Positions 2,268-29,657 of a DNA stretch of 32,409 nucleotides are shown here, piece by piece. The notes under the pieces are model-generated. The model had not been told where the DNA came from. It searched no databases and saw only the letters and a program-made list of their open reading frames with translations. The position numbers were made by a program, and so were the translations under genes. Positions within the stretch are counted from its first letter, which is position 1. Every line of letters starts with the position of its first letter. The DNA is taken from positions 1-32,409 of the forward strand of contig WHTT01000072.1 of the NCBI GenBank assembly GCA_009377605.1. The letters are read 5' to 3'. The DNA is from Luteitalea sp. GTDB lineage: Bacteria > Acidobacteriota > Vicinamibacteria > Vicinamibacterales > Vicinamibacteraceae.

Positions 2268-2768
2268 TCAGCGACGACGATGCGGGGACGGGTGCGCCTG
2301 GGGCGCAGCGGTCAGCTTCCACATCCGTGGATCGTAGACAAAGGGACGCTTCTCCACGATCCGGACCTTAGGATACTCGGCGTGCGCCGCGTTGAGGAGG
2401 ATATTGCGGTCACTCTCGGATAGCACGCTCGGCACGCTCAGGGCCAGCGCTCTGCCCTCGTTGACCCACTTGCCGCCGATTGCCTGGACGCTCGCTGGAA
2501 CCGGTACCGCCTTCCAATTCGTTGGTAGCGCCGTGCGCTCGAGCGACAAGGCGTTGCCCGGCACTTCAATCTTCACCATGAGATGGGGCGACTCCGCGAG
2601 CTCCGGGCCGAGGTGAACGAAGCGCTCCAGATACGCGAGCGCTTCAGTGCTTGCCGTGTAGAGAACCGCCACGCCGGGAGGATTCCAGCGACCGCCGAGG
2701 CGGCGTGCCCCCTCAGCTGAGAGCGGACTTGCCCGAAAATCGGCGGAGATGACGCGCCAGACGATCAC
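2268..2768 (-). CDS. RES-domain toxin (NAD+-consuming family)
   Basis: A 166-aa RES-domain protein. It has the N-terminal WR pair (W4-R5), GGRWNPPG at 25-32, and YTASTEALAYLERFVH, whose conserved Tyr, Ser and Glu belong to the family's ADP-ribosyltransferase-like pocket. Known RES toxins (MbcT, Res) degrade NAD+ and halt growth. Its start is the GTG at 2766-2768, which overlaps the antitoxin TGA (2765-2767) as GTGA, so toxin translation is coupled to the antitoxin. It is followed after 18 bp by the metallo-hydrolase. The ending is rich in His/Arg/Pro and looks disordered. Identification is firm; toxicity is inferred from the family and the operon. Confidence 0.92.
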   Translation of the reverse strand: MIVWRVISADFRASPLSAEGARRLGGRWNPPGVAVLYTASTEALAYLERFVHLGPELAESPHLMVKIEVPGNALSLERTALPTNWKAVPVPASVQAIGGKWVNEGRALALSVPSVLSESDRNILLNAAHAEYPKVRIVEKRPFVYDPRMWKLTAAPQAHPSPHRRR

Positions 2769-3217
2769 GGCAGGACGCCATGGTAAAGGCGATCGAGCAG
2801 TAGCTCGACTTCCGAGGCGCCCGCTTCGGTTCGCATCAGATCGAGCGGCACGCGACCCGCGAGCCCCGGTTGTTCACGCGAGAGCCAGCGGCTCACGCCG
2901 CCATCGGTCTTGAGCAACCGCTTCGCCAGGCTCACGACACGCGCCACGCGCACCAGGGCATTACTCTCCGCCGTCGTCAAACGCCCGTGCCGGACCAGAC
3001 GACGCTCCAGCGTCTTTTCGCTCGTATTGAGTAGCTTCGCAAGGGTGCCGCGCGAAACAGGCAAGCGCTCGACCAATGCCTTCACCGCCGAGCTGTCGAA
3101 GCCGACCAGAGCCTGCTCGTGTAGAAGGGTCTGTGCGGGCCCGGACGCTCGCCGTGTCGCGCCCAGTCGGCGCGCCCCACCCAAGAGATCCACAATGGCT
3201 TCACTATTCGCGGTCAT
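2765..3217 (-). CDS. Xre/MbcA/ParS-type antitoxin (DUF2384) of RES toxin
   Basis: About 150 aa. The middle has a helix-turn-helix-like segment (VSRGTLAKLLNTSEKTLERRL). The C-terminal MbcA/ParS toxin-binding domain contains ARVVSLAKRLL, GVSRWLS, G.VPLDLMRTEAGASEVE and a final LDRLYHGVLP. The family binds and blocks the RES toxin and represses the operon. I chose the ATG at 3215-3217 because an AGGTGA Shine-Dalgarno (3226-3231) lies exactly 8 nt upstream. The GTG at 3227-3229, four codons earlier, falls inside that Shine-Dalgarno and is a less likely start. The gene order antitoxin-toxin and the 4-nt overlap are typical of the Xre-RES type. Confidence 0.92.
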   Translation of the reverse strand: MTANSEAIVDLLGGARRLGATRRASGPAQTLLHEQALVGFDSSAVKALVERLPVSRGTLAKLLNTSEKTLERRLVRHGRLTTAESNALVRVARVVSLAKRLLKTDGGVSRWLSREQPGLAGRVPLDLMRTEAGASEVELLLDRLYHGVLP

Positions 3218-3222
3218 GGTGC

Positions 3223-3243
3223 CCGTCACCTGACGGCATTATA
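3223..3243 (-). promoter_or_regulatory. Toxin-antitoxin promoter -10 and operator palindrome
   Basis: On the minus strand a perfect TATAAT (3238-3243) is followed after one base by CCGTCA-GG-TGACGG (3223-3236), a 14-bp dyad with perfect 6-bp arms. The dyad contains the antitoxin Shine-Dalgarno (AGGTGA, 3226-3231). An antitoxin bound here would block initiation and cover the start region, matching known autoregulation of Xre-RES modules. No good -35 box is visible. The sites are seen; binding is inferred. Confidence 0.6.
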
Positions 3244-3285: not shown

Positions 3286-4494
3286 TTATGAGGCACCGCG
3301 GGACATCCATTCCCACGCAGGCACGACGTCCACGACGGTCCCTTCCGTTCTGATACGGTCATGCTGGTCGAGTGTGAGGATCAACGGACGGCGTGGCCCC
3401 GGCAAGGCCAGCGCGCGCAAGACGCCTTGCACTTCCCGCTGGCGGTTGAAAGCCGTCAGTTCCGCGCATACCTGCACGGCGGCGGACTCAGTGACGAAGT
3501 CACATCCCCACACGTCCTTCTCGCCCGCGTACGCCACGCGCTCCCCTTGTCGGCGCAGTGCAAGGAAGACCGCATTCTCTAGTCGACGTCCCAGATCGCG
3601 GGTAGCCTGTGGCGAATTGGCGCGGCGGAGGCCGGTGTCAACCGCATAGTACTTGTTGGGCGTGACCACACGCTGCTTGAACGACGGACTGAATTTTGGG
3701 ACGGCGAACGACACATAAGCATCCTCGAGAAACTCAAGATAGCGCGAGGTCTGCGCGACCGTAGGGATCGCGATCGCCTTCGTGAGGTTGTGCATCGAGA
3801 AGGGCTGTCCCGTGTTAGCAAATAGAAAGAGCACGAGATTCATCACGTGGCGCGTCTCACGCAAGGCGTGCCGTATCGTAATGTCCCGCTGGACGATGTC
3901 GCGCAGCAGCGCTTGAAGGAGCCGAGGATCGCGGTCGTGCAGATACATCGGAAAGCCGCCATCGTCGAGAAAAGCACCGAAGGAAGCGGCTCCCGGCTTC
4001 TGGCGCGTGTAGGCCAGGTATTCTGTGTAGCTGAACGGAAACAGCTCGAAGGACAGATGCCGGCCGGTCAGCTTTGCGCCCAGCTCGCGGCCCAGCAGCG
4101 AAGCATTGGAGCCCGTGACGCAAACCGCGCGGCCCCGGTCGAGCAGCGTACGTACCAGCCGCTCCCATTGAGCGACTTCCTGGACCTCATCCAGGAAGAT
4201 CTCCCCGTTCCGCGGCGCGAGCTCTTCCACCAGCTCGAGGAGGGTCGGGAAGTCCGCCGGGGACAGGTCGAAAAGCCGCGTGTCTTCCAAGTTGCAGTAC
4301 AAGGCGTCGGCCCGGCCTCGCATCAATTGGGCTTGGAGAATGCTCTTTCCCGCGCGCCGCACGCCGGTGAGAACGAGCGCGTGACCCGGCCGGGTGGGTA
4401 GCTCCGTGGAGAGCTCACGCAGGACGTCTGGTGCCGGCATCACTGGCGGCCGTTGGTCCTCGAGAATCCCCCTAAGTGTTTCTTTGAGTACCAC
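3286..4494 (-). CDS. AAA ATPase of the AAA_14 / DUF4143 family
   Basis: 402 aa. The Walker A is GVRRAGKS (residues 44-51) and the Walker B is EIFLDEVQ, with D102-E103 at its end. A sensor-like VCVTGSNASLL follows. The C-terminal half carries DUF4143 features: FPFSYTEYL, FPMYL, VQRDI, a winged segment LTKAIAIPTVAQTSRYLEFLEDAY, and KYYAVDTGLRRA...LENAVFLALRRQG. A late D-F-V...Q-V-C-A-E-L stretch recalls a degraded PD-(D/E)XK fold. These ATPases are widespread on accessory DNA and their role is unsettled; links to defence or mobile DNA are proposed but not shown here. Start is the GTG at 4492-4494, since the frame upstream meets a TGA with no other start. The start codon lies inside one of two operator-like repeats. 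Confidence 0.88.
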   Translation of the reverse strand: MVLKETLRGILEDQRPPVMPAPDVLRELSTELPTRPGHALVLTGVRRAGKSILQAQLMRGRADALYCNLEDTRLFDLSPADFPTLLELVEELAPRNGEIFLDEVQEVAQWERLVRTLLDRGRAVCVTGSNASLLGRELGAKLTGRHLSFELFPFSYTEYLAYTRQKPGAASFGAFLDDGGFPMYLHDRDPRLLQALLRDIVQRDITIRHALRETRHVMNLVLFLFANTGQPFSMHNLTKAIAIPTVAQTSRYLEFLEDAYVSFAVPKFSPSFKQRVVTPNKYYAVDTGLRRANSPQATRDLGRRLENAVFLALRRQGERVAYAGEKDVWGCDFVTESAAVQVCAELTAFNRQREVQGVLRALALPGPRRPLILTLDQHDRIRTEGTVVDVVPAWEWMSRGAS

Positions 4495-4761: not shown

Positions 4762-5913
4762 ATGGCAACAGGGACATTCACCGAACACGGCTGGGGAACG
4801 CTGGTCCCCGTCGCACCGGATCGGTGGGCCTTCGTGCCGCGGTCCTTGCCCCCGTCGCTGGATTTGTCCTGGGACTTCGTCGGTCAGATTGCCGCAGCGG
4901 ACCGCGCGGCCACGGAGCTCGCCAGCATCACGCGCCAGTTGCCGGACCCGCAGCTTCTCGTCGAACCGTTCCTCAAGCGAGAAGCCGTGAGCTCGAGCCG
5001 GCTCGCGGGCCTGCAGGCGACACTGTCCGATCTCTGTATCTTCGAGACCGCAAGCGCCCCTTCTACCGTGCGCAGTCTTGCGGCCGACGTACGGGAGGTT
5101 GCACGCTACGTGCACGTGCTCGAGTACGGCGTGCGTCGTGCCGCGGCGGGCGGGATCACGCTCAGGCTGCTGCGTGAGCTGCACGGACGCTTGCTGAAGG
5201 GGCTGCACACGGCTGGACGCGGTAGCGCCGGCGAGTTCCGCCGCGCGCACGCCTGGGTCGGGCTGGCTGAAGACAACTCCGCGACACGATTGGCCGCGCC
5301 ACCTGGCGCGCTACCGGAGGCGCTCAACGCGCTCGAGCGCTTTCTCCAAGCACCGTCACCGCTGCCACCGCTCGTCCGCGCGGCCCTGATTCACTATCAG
5401 TTCGCTGCCATCCATCCGTTCGCTCGCGCGAACGGGCGGGTCGGCCGTATGCTGATCGCGCTCCTCCTTGGTCGCGAGCGCGTCCTGCCGCAGCCGCTGC
5501 TCTATCTCTCGACAGCGTTGGAGTGTCAGCACGCCGAGTATGAGCGCCTCCTGTTGACGGTGAGTCAGCGCGGCGAGTGGAGCCCATGGATTCGGTTCTT
5601 CCTGCAGCTGGTCGTCACCACGGCGAGAGACGGCGTGCGTCGAGCGGATAGCCTGCTGACCCTGCGCGCCACCTATCGCGGACGGGTCGCAGGCGCTCGT
5701 TCGTGTGATCTGCTGATGAAGCTGCTCGATCACCTGTTTGCACATCCGGTCGTCACCATCCCCGGTGTCGCCAAGCTCCTGGACGTGACGCCGCGGACCG
5801 CGCGACTCACCATCCGCAAGCTGGAAACGGCAGGCTTGCTGGAAGAAGCGACCGGACGACAGCGATATCAGATGTTCATCGGGCGCTCGATCCTCAAAGC
5901 CTTAGAAGATTAG
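4762..5913 (+). CDS. Fic-domain protein with substituted catalytic and inhibitory motifs
   Basis: 383 aa with the layout of large class II-type Fic proteins: an N-terminal Fic_N region (about 30-95), the Fic core (about 110-260), and a C-terminal winged helix (about 315-383; VVTIPGVAKLLDVTPRTARLTIRKLE). The active-site loop is H218-PFARANGRVGR229. The usual form is HPFx(D/E)GNGRxxR, so the metal-binding acidic residue is Arg222 and the next Gly is Ala223. The N-terminal inhibitory motif, normally SSxxEG, reads S78-S-R-L-A82-G, so the inhibitory Glu is Ala. GEFRRAHAWVG, the usual region before the active site, is intact. Family members transfer AMP to target hydroxyls; this one may be inactive or use other chemistry. 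Start is the ATG at 4762, with no clear Shine-Dalgarno. Confidence 0.9.
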   Translation: MATGTFTEHGWGTLVPVAPDRWAFVPRSLPPSLDLSWDFVGQIAAADRAATELASITRQLPDPQLLVEPFLKREAVSSSRLAGLQATLSDLCIFETASAPSTVRSLAADVREVARYVHVLEYGVRRAAAGGITLRLLRELHGRLLKGLHTAGRGSAGEFRRAHAWVGLAEDNSATRLAAPPGALPEALNALERFLQAPSPLPPLVRAALIHYQFAAIHPFARANGRVGRMLIALLLGRERVLPQPLLYLSTALECQHAEYERLLLTVSQRGEWSPWIRFFLQLVVTTARDGVRRADSLLTLRATYRGRVAGARSCDLLMKLLDHLFAHPVVTIPGVAKLLDVTPRTARLTIRKLETAGLLEEATGRQRYQMFIGRSILKALED

Positions 5914-18090: not shown

Positions 18091-18117
18091 ACGAAAAAGG
18101 GGCCTGTCCCCTTTTCC
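18091..18117. repeat. REP-like A5G4...C4T4 palindrome after the response regulator
   Basis: AAAAGGGG (18095-18102) pairs with CCCCTTTT (18108-18115) around CCTGT, 10 bp after the regulator stop. A partial copy, CCAAAAGGGG, follows at 18139. It is the same element as the pair at 28908-28972. It can act as a transcript end for the two-component operon. Confidence 0.8.
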
Positions 18118-23768: not shown

Positions 23769-23784
23769 ATGCCAGCGAAGCTGA
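23632..23784 (+). CDS. Possible 50-aa leader peptide overlapping the FHA start
   Basis: A GTG at 23632 lies 6 nt after GGAGG (23621-23625) and opens a 50-codon frame that ends with TGA at 23782-23784, 13 bp inside the FHA gene. The FHA ATG itself has no Shine-Dalgarno, so translation of this frame could deliver ribosomes to it. The peptide resembles no family I know and could be chance. The same DNA is not claimed by another gene except at the overlap. Confidence 0.3.
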   Translation: MTRTRPLVSVEGESLFRAPLSGCHTHDSSFVTGPVAQDSSLDMVVVCQRS

Positions 23785-24695
23785 CCTTGCACCCGCCGGA
23801 GCGTGCGTCGCGCTTCGTGATTCTCCGTCCGGACCGCGCGGTGCTCATCGGCCGCGACCCGGCGGTCGATCTCGTGTTGGAGGATCCGCGTGTGTCGAAG
23901 CGGCATGCGCGTCTGCAGTCCGGGGCGGAAGCATGGTCACTCGAGGATCTCGGAAGCAAGAACGGCACGAGAATCAATGGCTCGCCGGTGATCCTCGTGA
24001 ATCTACGCAGCGGTGACTGGGTCAGCTTCGGTGGCCTGTTGGCCCGCTTCGAGATCATTTCCGAAGAAGCTGCGGCAGCCCTCTACGAAGATCGGCTGCG
24101 GCGTCTTCAAACGACCGCTGAGATGCGACATCGATTAAGTGCCGAGCTCGACCCGTCTGATCTGTTGCTGCGCTTCCTCGACTCTGCCGTGCAGTTGACC
24201 GGCACGGAGCGCGGCTTCGTCCTCGCAGCGGCCCCGCGCGAGCCGATTCGCGCGCTCGTCGCGACCGGCTTCACCGCCGATATGGTCGACGAAGCGGGCT
24301 TCGATGGCTCCGTAGGCGTGGTCAACAAGGTTCTGCACAGCGAGAAATCGATTGTTGTCAGCGATGTTCAGCAGGACGCATTCCTCGCCAGCCGCCCAAG
24401 CGTCATCGCGCTGGGGATCCGAACCCTGGCGTGCGTGCCACTGCGGCAGGACGAGCGCTCTTACGGCGTGCTGTATGTCGATGGCCGGAAGCCGGGGCCA
24501 GGCTTCACCGAGCTCGACCTCGAGATCTTGGAGGCGCTCGCCGAGCAGATGGCGCTCGTGCTCGCCAGCGCGCGGCTGGAGTCGACGGTCCGCGAGCTCG
24601 CCAACCCGATGGTTCACGCGACCGGCGACGATCCGAGCATTCTCGAAACGCTGCAACAGCGAGTTCGCGACGCGCGGATCACGCGGACGAGGTAG
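23769..24695 (+). CDS. FHA-GAF signalling protein
   Basis: 308 aa, soluble. The FHA domain (about 5-97) has all phosphothreonine-binding residues: IGRD (G28-R29), VSKRH (S43, H46) and LGSKNGTRING (N65). A helical linker (100-125) leads to a GAF domain (about 125-280) with TGTERGFVLAA, GFDGSVGVVNKVLHSEKSIVVSDVQQD, IRTLACVPLR and GVLYVDGRK. So it can read a Thr-phosphorylated partner and a small ligand. The Ser/Thr kinase gene starts 19 bp downstream, and its phosphosites are natural FHA targets. No output domain is present, so it must act through partners. Confidence 0.92.
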   Translation: MPAKLTLHPPERASRFVILRPDRAVLIGRDPAVDLVLEDPRVSKRHARLQSGAEAWSLEDLGSKNGTRINGSPVILVNLRSGDWVSFGGLLARFEIISEEAAAALYEDRLRRLQTTAEMRHRLSAELDPSDLLLRFLDSAVQLTGTERGFVLAAAPREPIRALVATGFTADMVDEAGFDGSVGVVNKVLHSEKSIVVSDVQQDAFLASRPSVIALGIRTLACVPLRQDERSYGVLYVDGRKPGPGFTELDLEILEALAEQMALVLASARLESTVRELANPMVHATGDDPSILETLQQRVRDARITRTR

Positions 24696-24714
24696 GACCA
24701 AGCACCTGACTGAT

Positions 24715-27700
24715 GTGACAGACCCAAGCGAGCGGACCACGGTCTACTCCGACCGAGTGCCTTCCGCGACGGAGACGCTCACGAGTGTCGACGTCGCCGA
24801 GCGGCTCGTGCCTGGAACGCTGGTTGCCGGCCGTTACCGCGTCCTCTCGTTCCGTGGCCTCGGCGGCATGGGCGTCGTCTACAAGGCACGCGACGAAGAG
24901 CTCGGCGTTGACGTTGCCTTGAAGGTCCTGCGATCTGACCTGCGGTGCGATCCGAGGTGGGTTCAACGCTTCCGGCGCGAGCTCGTGCTCGCGCGCCAGG
25001 TCACGCATCGAAACGTCGTCAGAATCCACGACATTGGCGAGACTTCGCGGCTGCGCTTTCTCACCATGGATTTCGTCGAGGGCCCCTCGCTCGGCGAAGT
25101 CCTCGACCGCGACGGGCCGCTGACCGTCCAGCGCGCGGTCGCCATCCTCCGGCAGCTCAGCGAGGCGCTGCAACAGGCGCACGCTGCCGGCATCGTCCAC
25201 AGAGACTTGAAACCGAGCAACATCCTGCTCGGACCTGACGATACGGCCTACATTACCGACTTTGGTGTCGCACGCTCCCGTGACGGCGAGCCATTGACAC
25301 GCACCGGTGCCATCGTCGGGACCCCCGACTATCTTTCCCCTGAGCAGCTCTCCGGCGAGCCGGTCGACGGGCGGAGCGATCTGTACGCCCTCGGCATCGT
25401 GTTCTACGAAGTCCTGACCGGAAAGCTGCCGTTTCGTGGGAAGACGCAGTCCGAGACATTGGCGCAGCGCCTGACCAGCGACGCACCTGACGTGTCGAGT
25501 GTCGGCGTCCGCGTACCGGCGGGCGTTCAACGGGTGCTCCGGAGATGCCTGACGCGTGCTCCGGCCCGCCGATACCAGCAGGCGCGCGAGATCGTGGCGG
25601 ATCTCGATCGGGTGGAACGGACCGCCAGCGGGTGGCGATTCGGCTCGCGCTTGGTGATCGCCGCCTGTGTGGCACTGCTCGTCGGTGTCCTGGTGTGGTG
25701 GGGAGCACGGGTGCTCGGCGGGCGGGTGACGTCGAGGCCAGCCGCAAACGCCGTGGCGATCGAGCACGCGGTGGCTGTGCTGCCGCTCGCGGACGAGGCG
25801 CGCGACCCTGAGCTCGCGTGGGTCGGTCTGGGTGGCGCCGATCTGCTGGCCAGGAGTCTTGCGGCCAGCCCCGACCTGCGAGTGGTCGGCCCAGAGCGTC
25901 TGCTTCCTGCATTGAGCAGCCTCGAGTTGACCCCAGGCCGCTACGATCGGGCAGCACTGGGCGACTTGGGCCGGTTGCTGGACGTTGACAGGATCATTAC
26001 GGGACGCGTGAAGCGGAGCGGTCAGGGGACGCGCCTGGACCTGCAGCTCGCGAGCGTCGCGGGCACACAAGATGTCACGAGCGTTCCACTCCTGTCCATC
26101 CAAGCCGACAATGCAGCTCGCTTCTTCCCTCTGATGAACGATCTCGGCGGGCGCCTTCGGCAGGCGCTCGACGGCGACGTTCCGCCGGATGGTGAAGCGC
26201 CATCGATCAGCACACGCGTTCCAACCGCTGCCGCCGCTTACCTCGAGGGCCAAGTGCGGCTCCACGAGGGTGACGCCTCGGCGGCCGCGTCGCTGTTCCA
26301 GCGCGCGGTACGCATCGACTCTCACTTCGCGGAGGCGCTGGAAGGGTTGAGCGAGGCCCACCAATATCTCGGCCATCGGGACGCCGCTGCCGAGGCCGCC
26401 TCGCGCGCGGGCGCGCTCGTCGGCAGCGGCCAAGGCCGGCTCGCCGAGCGCGTGCGCGCGCGGCTCGCGATGCTCCGGCACGAGGCGACAGACGCCCTCA
26501 CACTCTACGAGGGGCTCGCCGCACGATATCCCAACGACACGCGGACGTCGATAGATCTGGCCAATGCGCAAGCGACTGCCGGTCGTCGAGCGCAAGCCAT
26601 TGAGACGCTCGGCCGCGTGACGCGGATCGATCCCAACAACGCGCAAGCCTGGCTCTTGCTCGGCGAGCACACTCTGCGTTCGGACAACACGCACGCCACG
26701 ATCGACCGGCACTTCCGGCGTGCCCGAACCCTGTATGAACGTCTCGGTGACCAGCATGGCATGGCGGATGTGGCAGAGGCGATGGGGAGGGCGGATTACC
26801 AGGCGGGCGACTACGAGCAGGCGCTGGCGCATTACGCGGATGCGATGTCTCGGCGGGAGCGCCTCGGCAACCAGCGTGCTCTCGAGACGACGTTGCGTCG
26901 CCGAGCCGAGACACATCTAGCGAACGGAGACCGTCGTTTGGCTGCAGCCGATATCGCGTCGGCGCGGACGATTGTGCAGCGGCTCGGTGAGCGCGCGATG
27001 TTGGCCGATTTCCTCGACGAGACCGGGGCGATGTACGAAACGCATAGTGGCCATGGTCTTGCTTTGCAGGCGTATCAAGAGGCGCTCTTGATGAGACGAT
27101 CGCTGGGCGGCACCGAGCGGCTCGCCGAAAGCTATGATCGCGTCGGCGACGCCGCGTTCGCACAGGGCGACTATGCGGATGCGCCGCTTTATTGGAACGA
27201 AGCGCTCGCGTTGCGCGAGCGTGTGGACGACAGGCGCGGCGTGATCCTCTCGACTCAAGATCTCGGATTGCTGGCCATCGTCCAGGGGCGCTGGTCCGAA
27301 GCCATCGAGACGTTTCGTGCCACGTTGGAGCGAAGCGATGCCATCAGCTTCCAGCGCGGCGCGGTGGTCTCACACAAGAACCTCGCGCTATTGCATCATT
27401 ATCGAGGTCGGTACGGAGATGCGCTCGCCGCGCTCCAAGAGGCGTTGGCGATGGCGCGAGAGCTCGACCAGCCGGACCTCCTGACCTCGTGCACGCTGGA
27501 CGAGGTGGCACTGCTCGTCGAACTGGGTCAATGGGAACGAGCGCGTGCACGGCTCGCGGATGCCGACCATTGGATCAAGGTTGCTCACGACCGCGATCAA
27601 CGGACGAGACGCAGCATGCTCGTCGGCCTGCTCCACGAGCGGAACGATGATGCCGCGGCAGCGGACCTCGCGCTCGAAGCGGCACGTGAGGAGGCGGAGG

Positions 27701-28125
27701 CCGGCGACAACCGCGCGGTCTCCCTGCGAGTGCGGCTGGCGCAAGCACGGGTCAGGAGCGAGCGGGGCGATGCGCAGGCGCGTGGGACACTGTCGAAGCT
27801 GGCCGCGGAAGCGGACTCCTTTGGCAATGTGGTACTGCGGTTGGAGGCGGGCGCCGCGATCGCGGGCGCTGAGCTGCGCGCTGGGCGCACTGTTGCCGCC
27901 GAACGCCGGGTGCGGCGTACCATCGACCTCGCGGACCGCGTGGGCTGGGGCGCGGGTCGCTATCGGCTGCATGGGCTACTCGGTGAGGTATTGAAGGCGC
28001 GCGGCCTCGTTCCAGCAGCGGAGCGCGAGCAGACGATCGCACAGGTTGCCCTGGCGGAGATTCGTGACGGTCTCGCGCCGGAGCTACGCGATCGGTTCGA
28101 CGCGCTCCACCAAGGCAGGGACTGA
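24715..28125 (+). CDS. Ser/Thr protein kinase with transmembrane helix, FlgO/TolB-N-like domain and TPR array
   Basis: 1136 aa from the GTG at 24715; the frame continues upstream, but there it only shadows the FHA gene. The kinase domain (about 41-300) is complete: G48-L-G-G-M-G53, K70 (VALKVL), H162-R-D164 (IVHRDLKPSNILL), D182-FG, GTPDYLSPEQ. One membrane helix at about 313-330. Outside it a region with AVAVLPLADEARDPELAWVGLGGADLLARSL resembles the FlgO/TolB-N-like domain seen in CadC- and cyclase-type sensors. About 600 residues of TPR-like helical pairs follow. The Pkn-like kinase faces the cytoplasm and the TPRs the periplasm or outer side, by inference. The Shine-Dalgarno is weak, and coupling with the FHA gene is likely. 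Confidence 0.9.
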   Translation: MTDPSERTTVYSDRVPSATETLTSVDVAERLVPGTLVAGRYRVLSFRGLGGMGVVYKARDEELGVDVALKVLRSDLRCDPRWVQRFRRELVLARQVTHRNVVRIHDIGETSRLRFLTMDFVEGPSLGEVLDRDGPLTVQRAVAILRQLSEALQQAHAAGIVHRDLKPSNILLGPDDTAYITDFGVARSRDGEPLTRTGAIVGTPDYLSPEQLSGEPVDGRSDLYALGIVFYEVLTGKLPFRGKTQSETLAQRLTSDAPDVSSVGVRVPAGVQRVLRRCLTRAPARRYQQAREIVADLDRVERTASGWRFGSRLVIAACVALLVGVLVWWGARVLGGRVTSRPAANAVAIEHAVAVLPLADEARDPELAWVGLGGADLLARSLAASPDLRVVGPERLLPALSSLELTPGRYDRAALGDLGRLLDVDRIITGRVKRSGQGTRLDLQLASVAGTQDVTSVPLLSIQADNAARFFPLMNDLGGRLRQALDGDVPPDGEAPSISTRVPTAAAAYLEGQVRLHEGDASAAASLFQRAVRIDSHFAEALEGLSEAHQYLGHRDAAAEAASRAGALVGSGQGRLAERVRARLAMLRHEATDALTLYEGLAARYPNDTRTSIDLANAQATAGRRAQAIETLGRVTRIDPNNAQAWLLLGEHTLRSDNTHATIDRHFRRARTLYERLGDQHGMADVAEAMGRADYQAGDYEQALAHYADAMSRRERLGNQRALETTLRRRAETHLANGDRRLAAADIASARTIVQRLGERAMLADFLDETGAMYETHSGHGLALQAYQEALLMRRSLGGTERLAESYDRVGDAAFAQGDYADAPLYWNEALALRERVDDRRGVILSTQDLGLLAIVQGRWSEAIETFRATLERSDAISFQRGAVVSHKNLALLHHYRGRYGDALAALQEALAMARELDQPDLLTSCTLDEVALLVELGQWERARARLADADHWIKVAHDRDQRTRRSMLVGLLHERNDDAAAADLALEAAREEAEAGDNRAVSLRVRLAQARVRSERGDAQARGTLSKLAAEADSFGNVVLRLEAGAAIAGAELRAGRTVAAERRVRRTIDLADRVGWGAGRYRLHGLLGEVLKARGLVPAAEREQTIAQVALAEIRDGLAPELRDRFDALHQGRD

Positions 28126-28143
28126 CGTCAGAGGGGAGCATCA

Positions 28144-28941
28144 GTGGCGAGCGAGCTAGTCGCGTGGATCGAGCAACAGCTCGAACGGCTATCGCGTGAG
28201 AACGCGCGCCTGCTGCAGCGTCTCGCCGACAGTGAGCGGCGGTTTCGTGTGATCTCGCAAGGGGTGCTGCGTGTCCAGGAAGCGGAGCGCGGCCGCATCT
28301 CGCGCGAGCTCCACGATGGCGTCGGCCAGGCCCTCACCGGCTTGAAGCTGCAGCTCGACGTGCTCGAGCGAGAGGCGGCGGCGGGCGAGAGCCCCTTGAT
28401 GGCGCGGCTCGGCGAGCTCAAAGAGCTGACCGAACGAACGCTCAACGACGTACGAGCGCTCTCGCACTTGCTGCGCCCGCAGATGCTCGATGATCTCGGT
28501 CTCATGCCGACGCTTCGGTGGTTGACGCGCACGTTCGAGGGGCGAACCGCCGTGCCCGTGATGTTCGAGCACGAAGGTCTCGGTGAGCGACTCGATCCGG
28601 ATGTCGAGATCATCGTCTTTCGGGTGACGCAAGAGGCCTTGACCAACGTTGCCAAGCATGCGGAAGCGTCTCGCGTTCACGTGGGACTCGCATGCGATGG
28701 CGAGAGGCTCGCTCTCTCGATTCAGGATGATGGCAAGGGCTTTGACGCAGCGGCGGCATTGCGTGCAACGGGCGAGGATCAGGGATGCGGCGTGCGTGGG
28801 ATGCGTGATCGGGTCCAGCTCTTTGGGGGCACCTTCACGCTGAGCTCGACGCCCGGGCAGGGCACACGCATCGAGATCGAGCTTCGGTTGGTGCAGGGAG
28901 AGCAGGAGAAAAGGGGACAGGCCCCTTTTTCGTCTGCGTGA
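28144..28941 (+). CDS. Soluble NarL-type histidine kinase (HisKA_3)
   Basis: 265 aa, starting at GTG with GAGGGGAG just upstream and 18 bp after the kinase stop. No membrane helix. An N-terminal coiled coil (1-45) leads to the HisKA_3 box ERGRISRELHDGVGQALTGLK with His57, then HATPase_c with QEALTNVAKHAEA, DDGKGFD and GCGVRGMRDRV. The natural end of the domain is near IEIELRLVQGEQ. The last 11 residues (EKRGQAPFSSA) and the stop are encoded by a REP palindrome, so the original stop has been replaced. Signals probably come from the FHA-GAF protein or the Ser/Thr kinase, since it lacks its own sensor. Confidence 0.94.
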   Translation: MASELVAWIEQQLERLSRENARLLQRLADSERRFRVISQGVLRVQEAERGRISRELHDGVGQALTGLKLQLDVLEREAAAGESPLMARLGELKELTERTLNDVRALSHLLRPQMLDDLGLMPTLRWLTRTFEGRTAVPVMFEHEGLGERLDPDVEIIVFRVTQEALTNVAKHAEASRVHVGLACDGERLALSIQDDGKGFDAAAALRATGEDQGCGVRGMRDRVQLFGGTFTLSSTPGQGTRIEIELRLVQGEQEKRGQAPFSSA

Positions 28942-28972
28942 GTTCCGAAAAAGGGGCCTGTCCCCTTTTTCC
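28908..28972. repeat. Inverted pair of REP-like palindromes spanning a gene end
   Basis: Copy 1: AAAAGGGG (28909-28916), ACAGG, CCCCTTTT (28922-28929). Copy 2: AAAAAGGGG (28948-28956), CCTGT, CCCCTTTTT (28962-28970). Their loops are complementary, so the two are in opposite orientation, as in BIME-type REP pairs of other bacteria. Copy 1 lies inside the histidine kinase coding region; copy 2 is in the 65-bp spacer before the response regulator gene. A single copy is at 18091. No RAYT transposase gene is in the window. Confidence 0.88.
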
Positions 28973-28993
28973 GCGGAGAACGACAGAGGGGAC

Positions 28994-29009
28994 GGGAGAC
29001 GGAGCAGTG
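28994..29009 (+). promoter_or_regulatory. Shine-Dalgarno that fixes the LuxR-type regulator start
   Basis: GGGAG (28994-28998) lies 8 nt before the GTG at 29007. The frame is open back to a GTG at 28938, but those 23 codons translate REP sequence and have no Shine-Dalgarno, and the receiver domain begins right after 29007. Confidence 0.7.
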
Positions 29010-29657
29010 TCACGAATTCGCGTATTGGTTGCTGATGATCACACGATTGTCCGACAAGGGCTCGTCAGCCTGCTCCAGGCGGAGCAGGAGATTGAGGTGA
29101 TTGGCCAGGCGGCCGATGGCCTGGAGGCAGTCGCGCAAGCCGCTGCGCTCCGGCCAGATATCGTCGTCCTGGACATCACAATGCCGCGGCTCTCCGGTCT
29201 TGACGCCGCGCGCCGCATTCGGGAAGCGCAGCCGCAGTGCCGCATTCTCGTCCTCACGATGCACGACGACGAGGAGTACGTGCTGAAGATGACTCGGGTG
29301 GGCGCGTCTGGCTACATCGTGAAGGATGGCGCAGCGGCCGAGCTCATCGAGGCCATCCGGTCTCTCGCGGCTGGTCGCACATACTTTGCCGGCCGGGTGC
29401 CACGCCTGCCCGGAGCGGCGCTGGGTACCAACGCCCACGCCACCAACAACGTGCATCCGCTGGCGAGCCTCACCAATCGCGAGCGCGAAGTCTTCCAGCT
29501 CGTCGCCGAGGCAAAAACGAACCCGCAGATTGCCAAGCTGCTCGGCCTGAGCCCCAAGACCGTCGACAATCACCGCACGCGGCTGATGGAGAAGCTCGGG
29601 ATCCACAGCACCGCCGAGCTCGTGCGCTTCGCGGCGCGACACGGGCTGCTCGAATAG
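29007..29657 (+). CDS. NarL/FixJ-family response regulator
   Basis: 216 aa. The receiver domain (about 2-120) has D10-D11, phosphoacceptor D56 (IVVLDITMP), a Thr in ILVLTMHDD and Lys in GYIVKDGA. The LuxR-type helix-turn-helix (about 150-210) reads LTNREREVFQLVAEAKTNPQIAKLLGLSPKTVDNHRTRLMEKL. It is the cognate partner of the HisKA_3 kinase just upstream and the output of the FHA-kinase operon. Ser/Thr kinases can also modify such regulators, but no site can be named from sequence. A GGGTCAGGG/CCCTGAACCC hairpin follows the stop at 29661-29681. Confidence 0.96.
   Translation: MSRIRVLVADDHTIVRQGLVSLLQAEQEIEVIGQAADGLEAVAQAAALRPDIVVLDITMPRLSGLDAARRIREAQPQCRILVLTMHDDEEYVLKMTRVGASGYIVKDGAAAELIEAIRSLAAGRTYFAGRVPRLPGAALGTNAHATNNVHPLASLTNREREVFQLVAEAKTNPQIAKLLGLSPKTVDNHRTRLMEKLGIHSTAELVRFAARHGLLE

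Follow-up and report, generated by a model that had tools for sequence, protein, structure and literature searches.

Can a Ser/Thr kinase, a phosphothreonine reader and a two-component pair that are encoded side by side form a single signalling pathway? The question is raised by four consecutive genes on a 32,409-bp contig of Luteitalea sp. (phylum Acidobacteriota; assembly GCA_009377605.1, contig WHTT01000072.1), the whole of which is referred to below as the window. An earlier note, made from the sequence alone, had placed the four genes in one operon and had proposed a linear pathway from an outer signal to the Ser/Thr kinase (STK), then to an FHA domain, a GAF domain, a histidine kinase (HK) and a response regulator (RR). 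We find that the four-gene unit is real and conserved, and that it probably serves one signalling pathway. The genes occupy positions 23769-29657, all on the plus strand, in the order FHA-GAF, STK-TPR, HK and RR, and have the following features:

23769..24695, plus strand: FHA-GAF protein, 308 amino acids (aa), with FHA at residues 25-88 and GAF at 127-265, without an output domain (Pfam)
24715..28125, plus strand: membrane STK, 1136 aa, with the kinase domain at about 36-298, one transmembrane segment, an alpha/beta domain at about 350-485 and a TPR superhelix of about 600 residues (Pfam, AlphaFold2, hydropathy)
24775..24783, plus strand: Thr-x-Thr motif of the STK, T21 and T23 (ETLTSVD), N-terminal to the kinase domain, a candidate autophosphorylation and FHA docking site (comparison with paralogues; function putative)
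25627..25728, plus strand: transmembrane segment of the STK (Kyte-Doolittle maximum 2.52)
28144..28941, plus strand: cytosolic NarL-type HK with a short coiled coil, HisKA_3 and HATPase_c, without a sensor domain (Pfam)
28909..28970, no strand assigned: inverted pair of a dispersed palindrome resembling repetitive extragenic palindromes, providing the C-terminal tail of the HK and part of the HK-RR gap (repeat matches in the genome)
29007..29657, plus strand: NarL/LuxR-type RR, 216 aa, with REC and GerE (Pfam)

Thus the coordinates, strand and protein types given by the earlier note are all confirmed, as are its intergenic gaps of 19, 18 and 65 bp, assuming GTG start codons at 24715 for the STK and at 29007, its most likely start, for the RR. 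A promoter and terminator scan gave no signal above chance.

Within the window genome (G000) and its immediate surroundings in the phylogeny, the unit could be mistaken for a local accident. Of 60 relatives, most of which belong to the same order, none but the sister genome G001 (metagenome-assembled genome Luteitalea sp. Dino_bin50) carries the genes, and there the local synteny is complete. The lack of a match outside the genus in that sample is what could be said for accidental adjacency or mere local synteny. This explanation is hardly conceivable, having already been refuted by the finding of the cassette, amid different flanking genes, in further families and classes. A survey of 396 genomes from the whole phylum detected free-standing FHA-GAF orthologues in G121, G372, G396 and G084, each followed by a full-length STK-TPR gene. 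A scan of GTDB contigs yielded L080, L082 (gp7 AA5) and L083, a search of the class to which G396 belongs for the DUF6689 domain contributed G514, G477 and G465, and an FHA-GAF profile search in the class of the window added G527, for a total of 11 genomes. (Contigs L039 and L079 belong to G001, L080 to G372, L082 to G481, L083 and L071 to G396, L072 to G084, and L179, L180 and L181 to G514, G477 and G465, respectively.) The earlier note had proposed to look for a conserved order of the four genes in acidobacterial genomes. The order FHA-GAF, STK-TPR, HK recurs in eight of the 11 (the window genome, G001, L082, G396, G084, G514, G477 and G465), which represent several families and no fewer than three classes of Acidobacteriota, and the flanking genes vary by lineage. 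The RR lies downstream in seven of the eight and is inverted nearby in G477 (L180); in G084 an opposite-strand gene, methyltransferase-like by eye, sits between HK and RR, and the G514 STK is split into two frames in the assembly.

The divergence of the four proteins goes hand in hand: their pairwise identities correlate (r 0.88-0.93), and the four gene trees are largely congruent, with the main groups in common. Because vertical descent alone also correlates divergence, we take this as a sign of stable co-inheritance, not of contact. Together, the same order, the differing surroundings and the co-divergence strongly support a single conserved unit, and its recurrence in such distant Acidobacteria indicates that it probably represents one real signalling pathway, undescribed so far.

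How could a signal pass through it? The FHA-GAF protein (Pfam E-values 2.9e-18 for FHA and 4.9e-18 for GAF) has pocket residues R29, S43 and N65 invariant across six orthologues, and its GR, SxxH and NG motifs are those of a predicted phosphothreonine-binding FHA domain, with the His of SxxH replaced by Gln in G121. As noted earlier, it has no output, there being no Pfam domain C-terminal to GAF. The STK (Pkinase, 3.8e-47, plus TPRs) has the catalytic Lys, HRD, DFG and TPR repeats of Hanks-type kinases, and K70, D164, K166, D182 and G184 are invariant. Its residues 305-338, approximately, form the only strongly hydrophobic segment in all four proteins, and its AlphaFold2 model (mean predicted local distance difference test, pLDDT, 78) consists of kinase, linker, alpha/beta domain and a long TPR superhelix. 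A single transmembrane helix between kinase and TPR, combined with this layout, points to a probably extracytoplasmic TPR array, in agreement with the earlier note. The HK (HisKA_3, 5.7e-17; HATPase_c, 1.3e-14) adjoins an RR composed of REC and GerE (Response_reg, 1.4e-29; GerE, 4.1e-20), an arrangement typical of NarL/FixJ two-component pairs. The H-box, N-box and G-boxes are conserved in the eight operon HKs, as are D10, D11 and D56 of the RR, and the phosphoacceptors of both are invariant in the alignments. No sensor domain precedes HisKA_3: the HK is a bare protein of about 260 aa in seven of eight genomes, and in G084 it has extra N-terminal residues, with a total of 380 aa. Lacking its own sensor in these seven, the HK must obtain its input from elsewhere.

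The most economical mechanism, judging from the sequences, would be that FHA-GAF docks on the phosphorylated kinase and supplies the input that the HK lacks. On the outer side of the membrane, the TPR array would read the state of the envelope, assisted in most species by a secreted DUF6689 protein, and the kinase would autophosphorylate on its N-terminal Thr-x-Thr stretch. FHA-GAF would then dock on the STK phosphothreonine and, with a small-molecule or redox input at GAF, would control the sensorless HK as its detached input domain; the HK would phosphorylate the NarL-type regulator, with a resulting change in transcription that would probably include the operon itself. This reading of the operon as an envelope-to-transcription phosphosignalling cassette with a detached HK input is the one which we tentatively prefer, as plausible but somewhat short of probable. 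In its favour are the preserved catalytic and phosphothreonine-binding residues, the sensorless HK and precedents in which an STK and an HK act in concert (PMC2176072, PMC3033389, PMC12189002). Most known links between bacterial Ser/Thr kinases and two-component systems are individual cases of cross-talk; in this operon, a single conserved unit holds both, with a phosphothreonine reader between them, which makes it possible to test directly, with four purified proteins, how a Ser/Thr kinase can drive a histidine kinase.

The putative docking site deserves closer attention. About 15 residues N-terminal of the kinase domain, Thr-x-Thr is present in 10 of 11 operon kinases as compared with 3 of 14 paralogues, and T[SN]x[DE] in 7 of 11 as compared with 1 of 14. 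The FHA1 domain of Rad53 binds LEV(pT)EADATFAK, and an acidic residue at pT+3 is a known FHA preference (PMC3146460). The Thr-[SN]-x-[DE] of the STK resembles this pT-x-x-D ligand, and the Thr-x-Thr stretch can therefore be regarded as a candidate docking site for the FHA domain. The window genome contains 15 Ser/Thr kinase genes (E <= 1e-20), and FHA domains are generally able to read many phosphothreonine sites, which would be compatible with FHA-GAF being a general hub that reads several of these kinases and feeds the HK. Such a hub is quite improbable, since the neighbour of FHA-GAF is an orthologue of one and the same kinase in every one of the 11 genomes, and the two proteins co-diverge (r 0.91).

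Several observations weigh against a detached HK input read from the kinase. The Fisher p values for the two motif comparisons (0.001 and 0.007) are optimistic, the sequences being related, and the T[SN]x[DE] form is missing in 4 of 11 operon kinases. No conserved Ser/Thr was found in the HK N-terminus among the eight operon HKs. In other Acidobacteria (G214 and G145), the fusion partners of a similar GAF are STK-TPR and a sigma-54 activator instead of an HK, indicating that the same inputs can feed another output. Furthermore, G121 and G372 keep DUF6689, FHA-GAF and STK with no HK or RR in the flanks; G527 has the same three genes, and no HK or RR was found before its contig ends inside the STK. 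No orthologous HK was detected elsewhere in these three genomes: the best matches, of about 40% identity, lie in far larger open frames and were rejected, as were NarL-type regulators near the G527 cassette (40-45%), which look like a separate locus. The Ser/Thr part may thus work alone or with another output. The linear pathway of the earlier note consequently survives in part: it fits the anatomy and is favoured by the candidate docking motif, but the order of its steps is hypothetical, and the three genomes without a detected HK or RR speak against it.

The same three genomes, along with G231 and G126, in which DUF6689 and STK occur without FHA-GAF, show that the parts are separable, and would be accounted for if the operon held two modules with no phosphate chain between them, FHA-GAF and STK being self-contained with other targets, as in PknB-GarA and PpkA-Fha1, and HK-RR only autoregulating the operon. 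We regard this as rather unlikely, if the strongest rival, given that eight genomes from distant families retain HK and RR together with the pair, that HK and RR co-diverge with it, and that the HK lacks its own sensor.

Alternatively, the STK might phosphorylate the HK or RR directly on Ser/Thr, with FHA-GAF serving as a scaffold or brake and not as a relay. DegS and DegU of Bacillus subtilis are both of the NarL type and, like the pair in the window, comprise a cytosolic HK and its RR, in their case under Ser/Thr-kinase control. DegS is stimulated by Ser phosphorylation from the Hanks kinase YbdM, the target Ser76 being located in its input domain, and neither an FHA partner nor an operon common with YbdM is mentioned there (PMC3033389). 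Further precedents for direct action are the ATP lid of CroS, phosphorylated by a Ser/Thr kinase (PMC12189002), and DosR and VraR, which are listed as Ser/Thr-kinase targets (PMC6213207). In contrast to DegS, the window HK has about 46 residues in the corresponding region, a short coiled coil without conserved Ser/Thr, so that a DegS-like phosphosite was rejected; Ser/Thr residues of the ATP lid vary as well. Direct phosphorylation thus appears unlikely, and docking of FHA-GAF remains our preferred input to the HK.

Outside the genus of the window, the cassette has a fifth member. A gene for a DUF6689 (PF20396) protein, which by eye seems to have a signal peptide, lies directly upstream of FHA-GAF in nine of nine such genomes, and is absent from the window, from the whole genome G000 and from its sister G001. 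Our surveys found DUF6689 in 11 genomes, invariably beside an STK-TPR gene: nine times in the cassette, and in G231 and G126 next to another STK-TPR gene, without FHA-GAF. One could further envisage a dedicated five-protein relay linking envelope and transcription: secreted DUF6689 would serve the TPR kinase as ligand or co-receptor, while FHA-GAF, as a diffusible protein, would read the phosphothreonine and act as the detached HK sensor, an adaptor through which Ser/Thr phosphorylation is turned into His-Asp phosphorylation. As a whole, such a relay is possible but somewhat doubtful. The AlphaFold2 model of DUF6689 (pLDDT 70) has its best PDB match at a template modelling score below 0.3, which is uninformative, and no mention of the domain was found in open-access papers. 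The cassette provides a first context for DUF6689, and also for many receptor-like TPR kinases of Acidobacteria. Divergent DUF6689 genes adjoining STK-TPR without FHA-GAF are located at L165:5179-5997 and L166:9210-10040.

Comparison with known systems shows that each part is of a known kind, with HstK and DegS/YbdM as the nearest precedents, while no published description of this gene combination was found in the open-access literature. In cyanobacterial HstK (cbSTKIII), STK, GAF and HisKA are combined in a single chain (PMC2176072). Both systems bring a Ser/Thr kinase, a GAF domain and a histidine kinase together in a single signalling unit. Here, however, these are three separate proteins, with HisKA_3 instead of HisKA, and they are accompanied by FHA, extracytoplasmic TPRs, a NarL regulator and, in most cases, DUF6689. 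That FHA genes cluster with those of kinases is an old observation in M. tuberculosis (PMC1262709), and PknB-GarA and PpkA-Fha1 are established kinase-FHA pairs (PMC6213207). The cassette likewise pairs an STK with an FHA protein, but it differs from them in having no secretion genes or phosphatase and in the GAF domain carried by the FHA protein. No type VI secretion or PP2C phosphatase domain was found in the immediate window neighbours or other scanned window genes, the flanks of the relatives having been Pfam-scanned only in part. Inhibitors of the GarA/OdhI type have a phosphorylatable N-terminal ETT motif ahead of FHA; FHA-GAF begins directly at the FHA domain, without such a motif.

Two further protein types share modules with the cassette. 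FHA-GAF-SpoIIE/PP2C-type fusions of about 540 aa (L011-L038; output domain identified by eye) are widespread in the order of the window and could oppose Ser/Thr kinases. Their FHA-GAF input module is about 30-35% identical to ours, but is fused to a PP2C-type phosphatase output, of which there is none here; FHA-GAF matches of same-order genomes proved to be such phosphatases and were rejected as cassette orthologues. The large GAF proteins of G214 and G145, initially considered as STK-GAF-HK fusions, proved to be STK-TPR-GAF-sigma54 proteins. They also link Ser/Thr kinase, TPR and GAF to transcription, but in a single chain with sigma-54 output and without FHA, HK or RR. Single chains of about 1720 aa with the layout STK-AAA-TPR-GAF-sigma54 activator-HTH are found at L208:1982-7141 and L209:1661-6850.

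The wider gap between HK and RR in the window has a local explanation. The palindrome AAAAGGGGACAGGCCCCTTTTT forms the inverted pair at 28909-28970, is present as a single copy at 18094-18116 and has many other matches genome-wide; the last 11 or so HK codons derive from it, and the sister genome G001 has a copy upstream of FHA-GAF. Since the repeat lies here, and the HK gene overlaps the RR gene by 1-4 bp in L082, L179 and L181, the 65-bp gap is at least partly repeat-derived and does not point to loose coupling.

When neighbour genes common to the operons were sought as targets, only an M36 peptidase was found, beside two sister operons; this fungalysin-type metallopeptidase gene is convergent with the cassette in the two sister genomes (L071:16166-18997 and L181:7436-10624). 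Elsewhere in the window, genes for a RES-domain toxin and an Xre/MbcA/ParS-type antitoxin form a pair at 2268-3229 with a 4-bp overlap, and a Fic/DOC family protein with a C-terminal HTH is encoded at 4762-5913, near an AAA_14/DUF4143 ATPase gene at 3286-4494.

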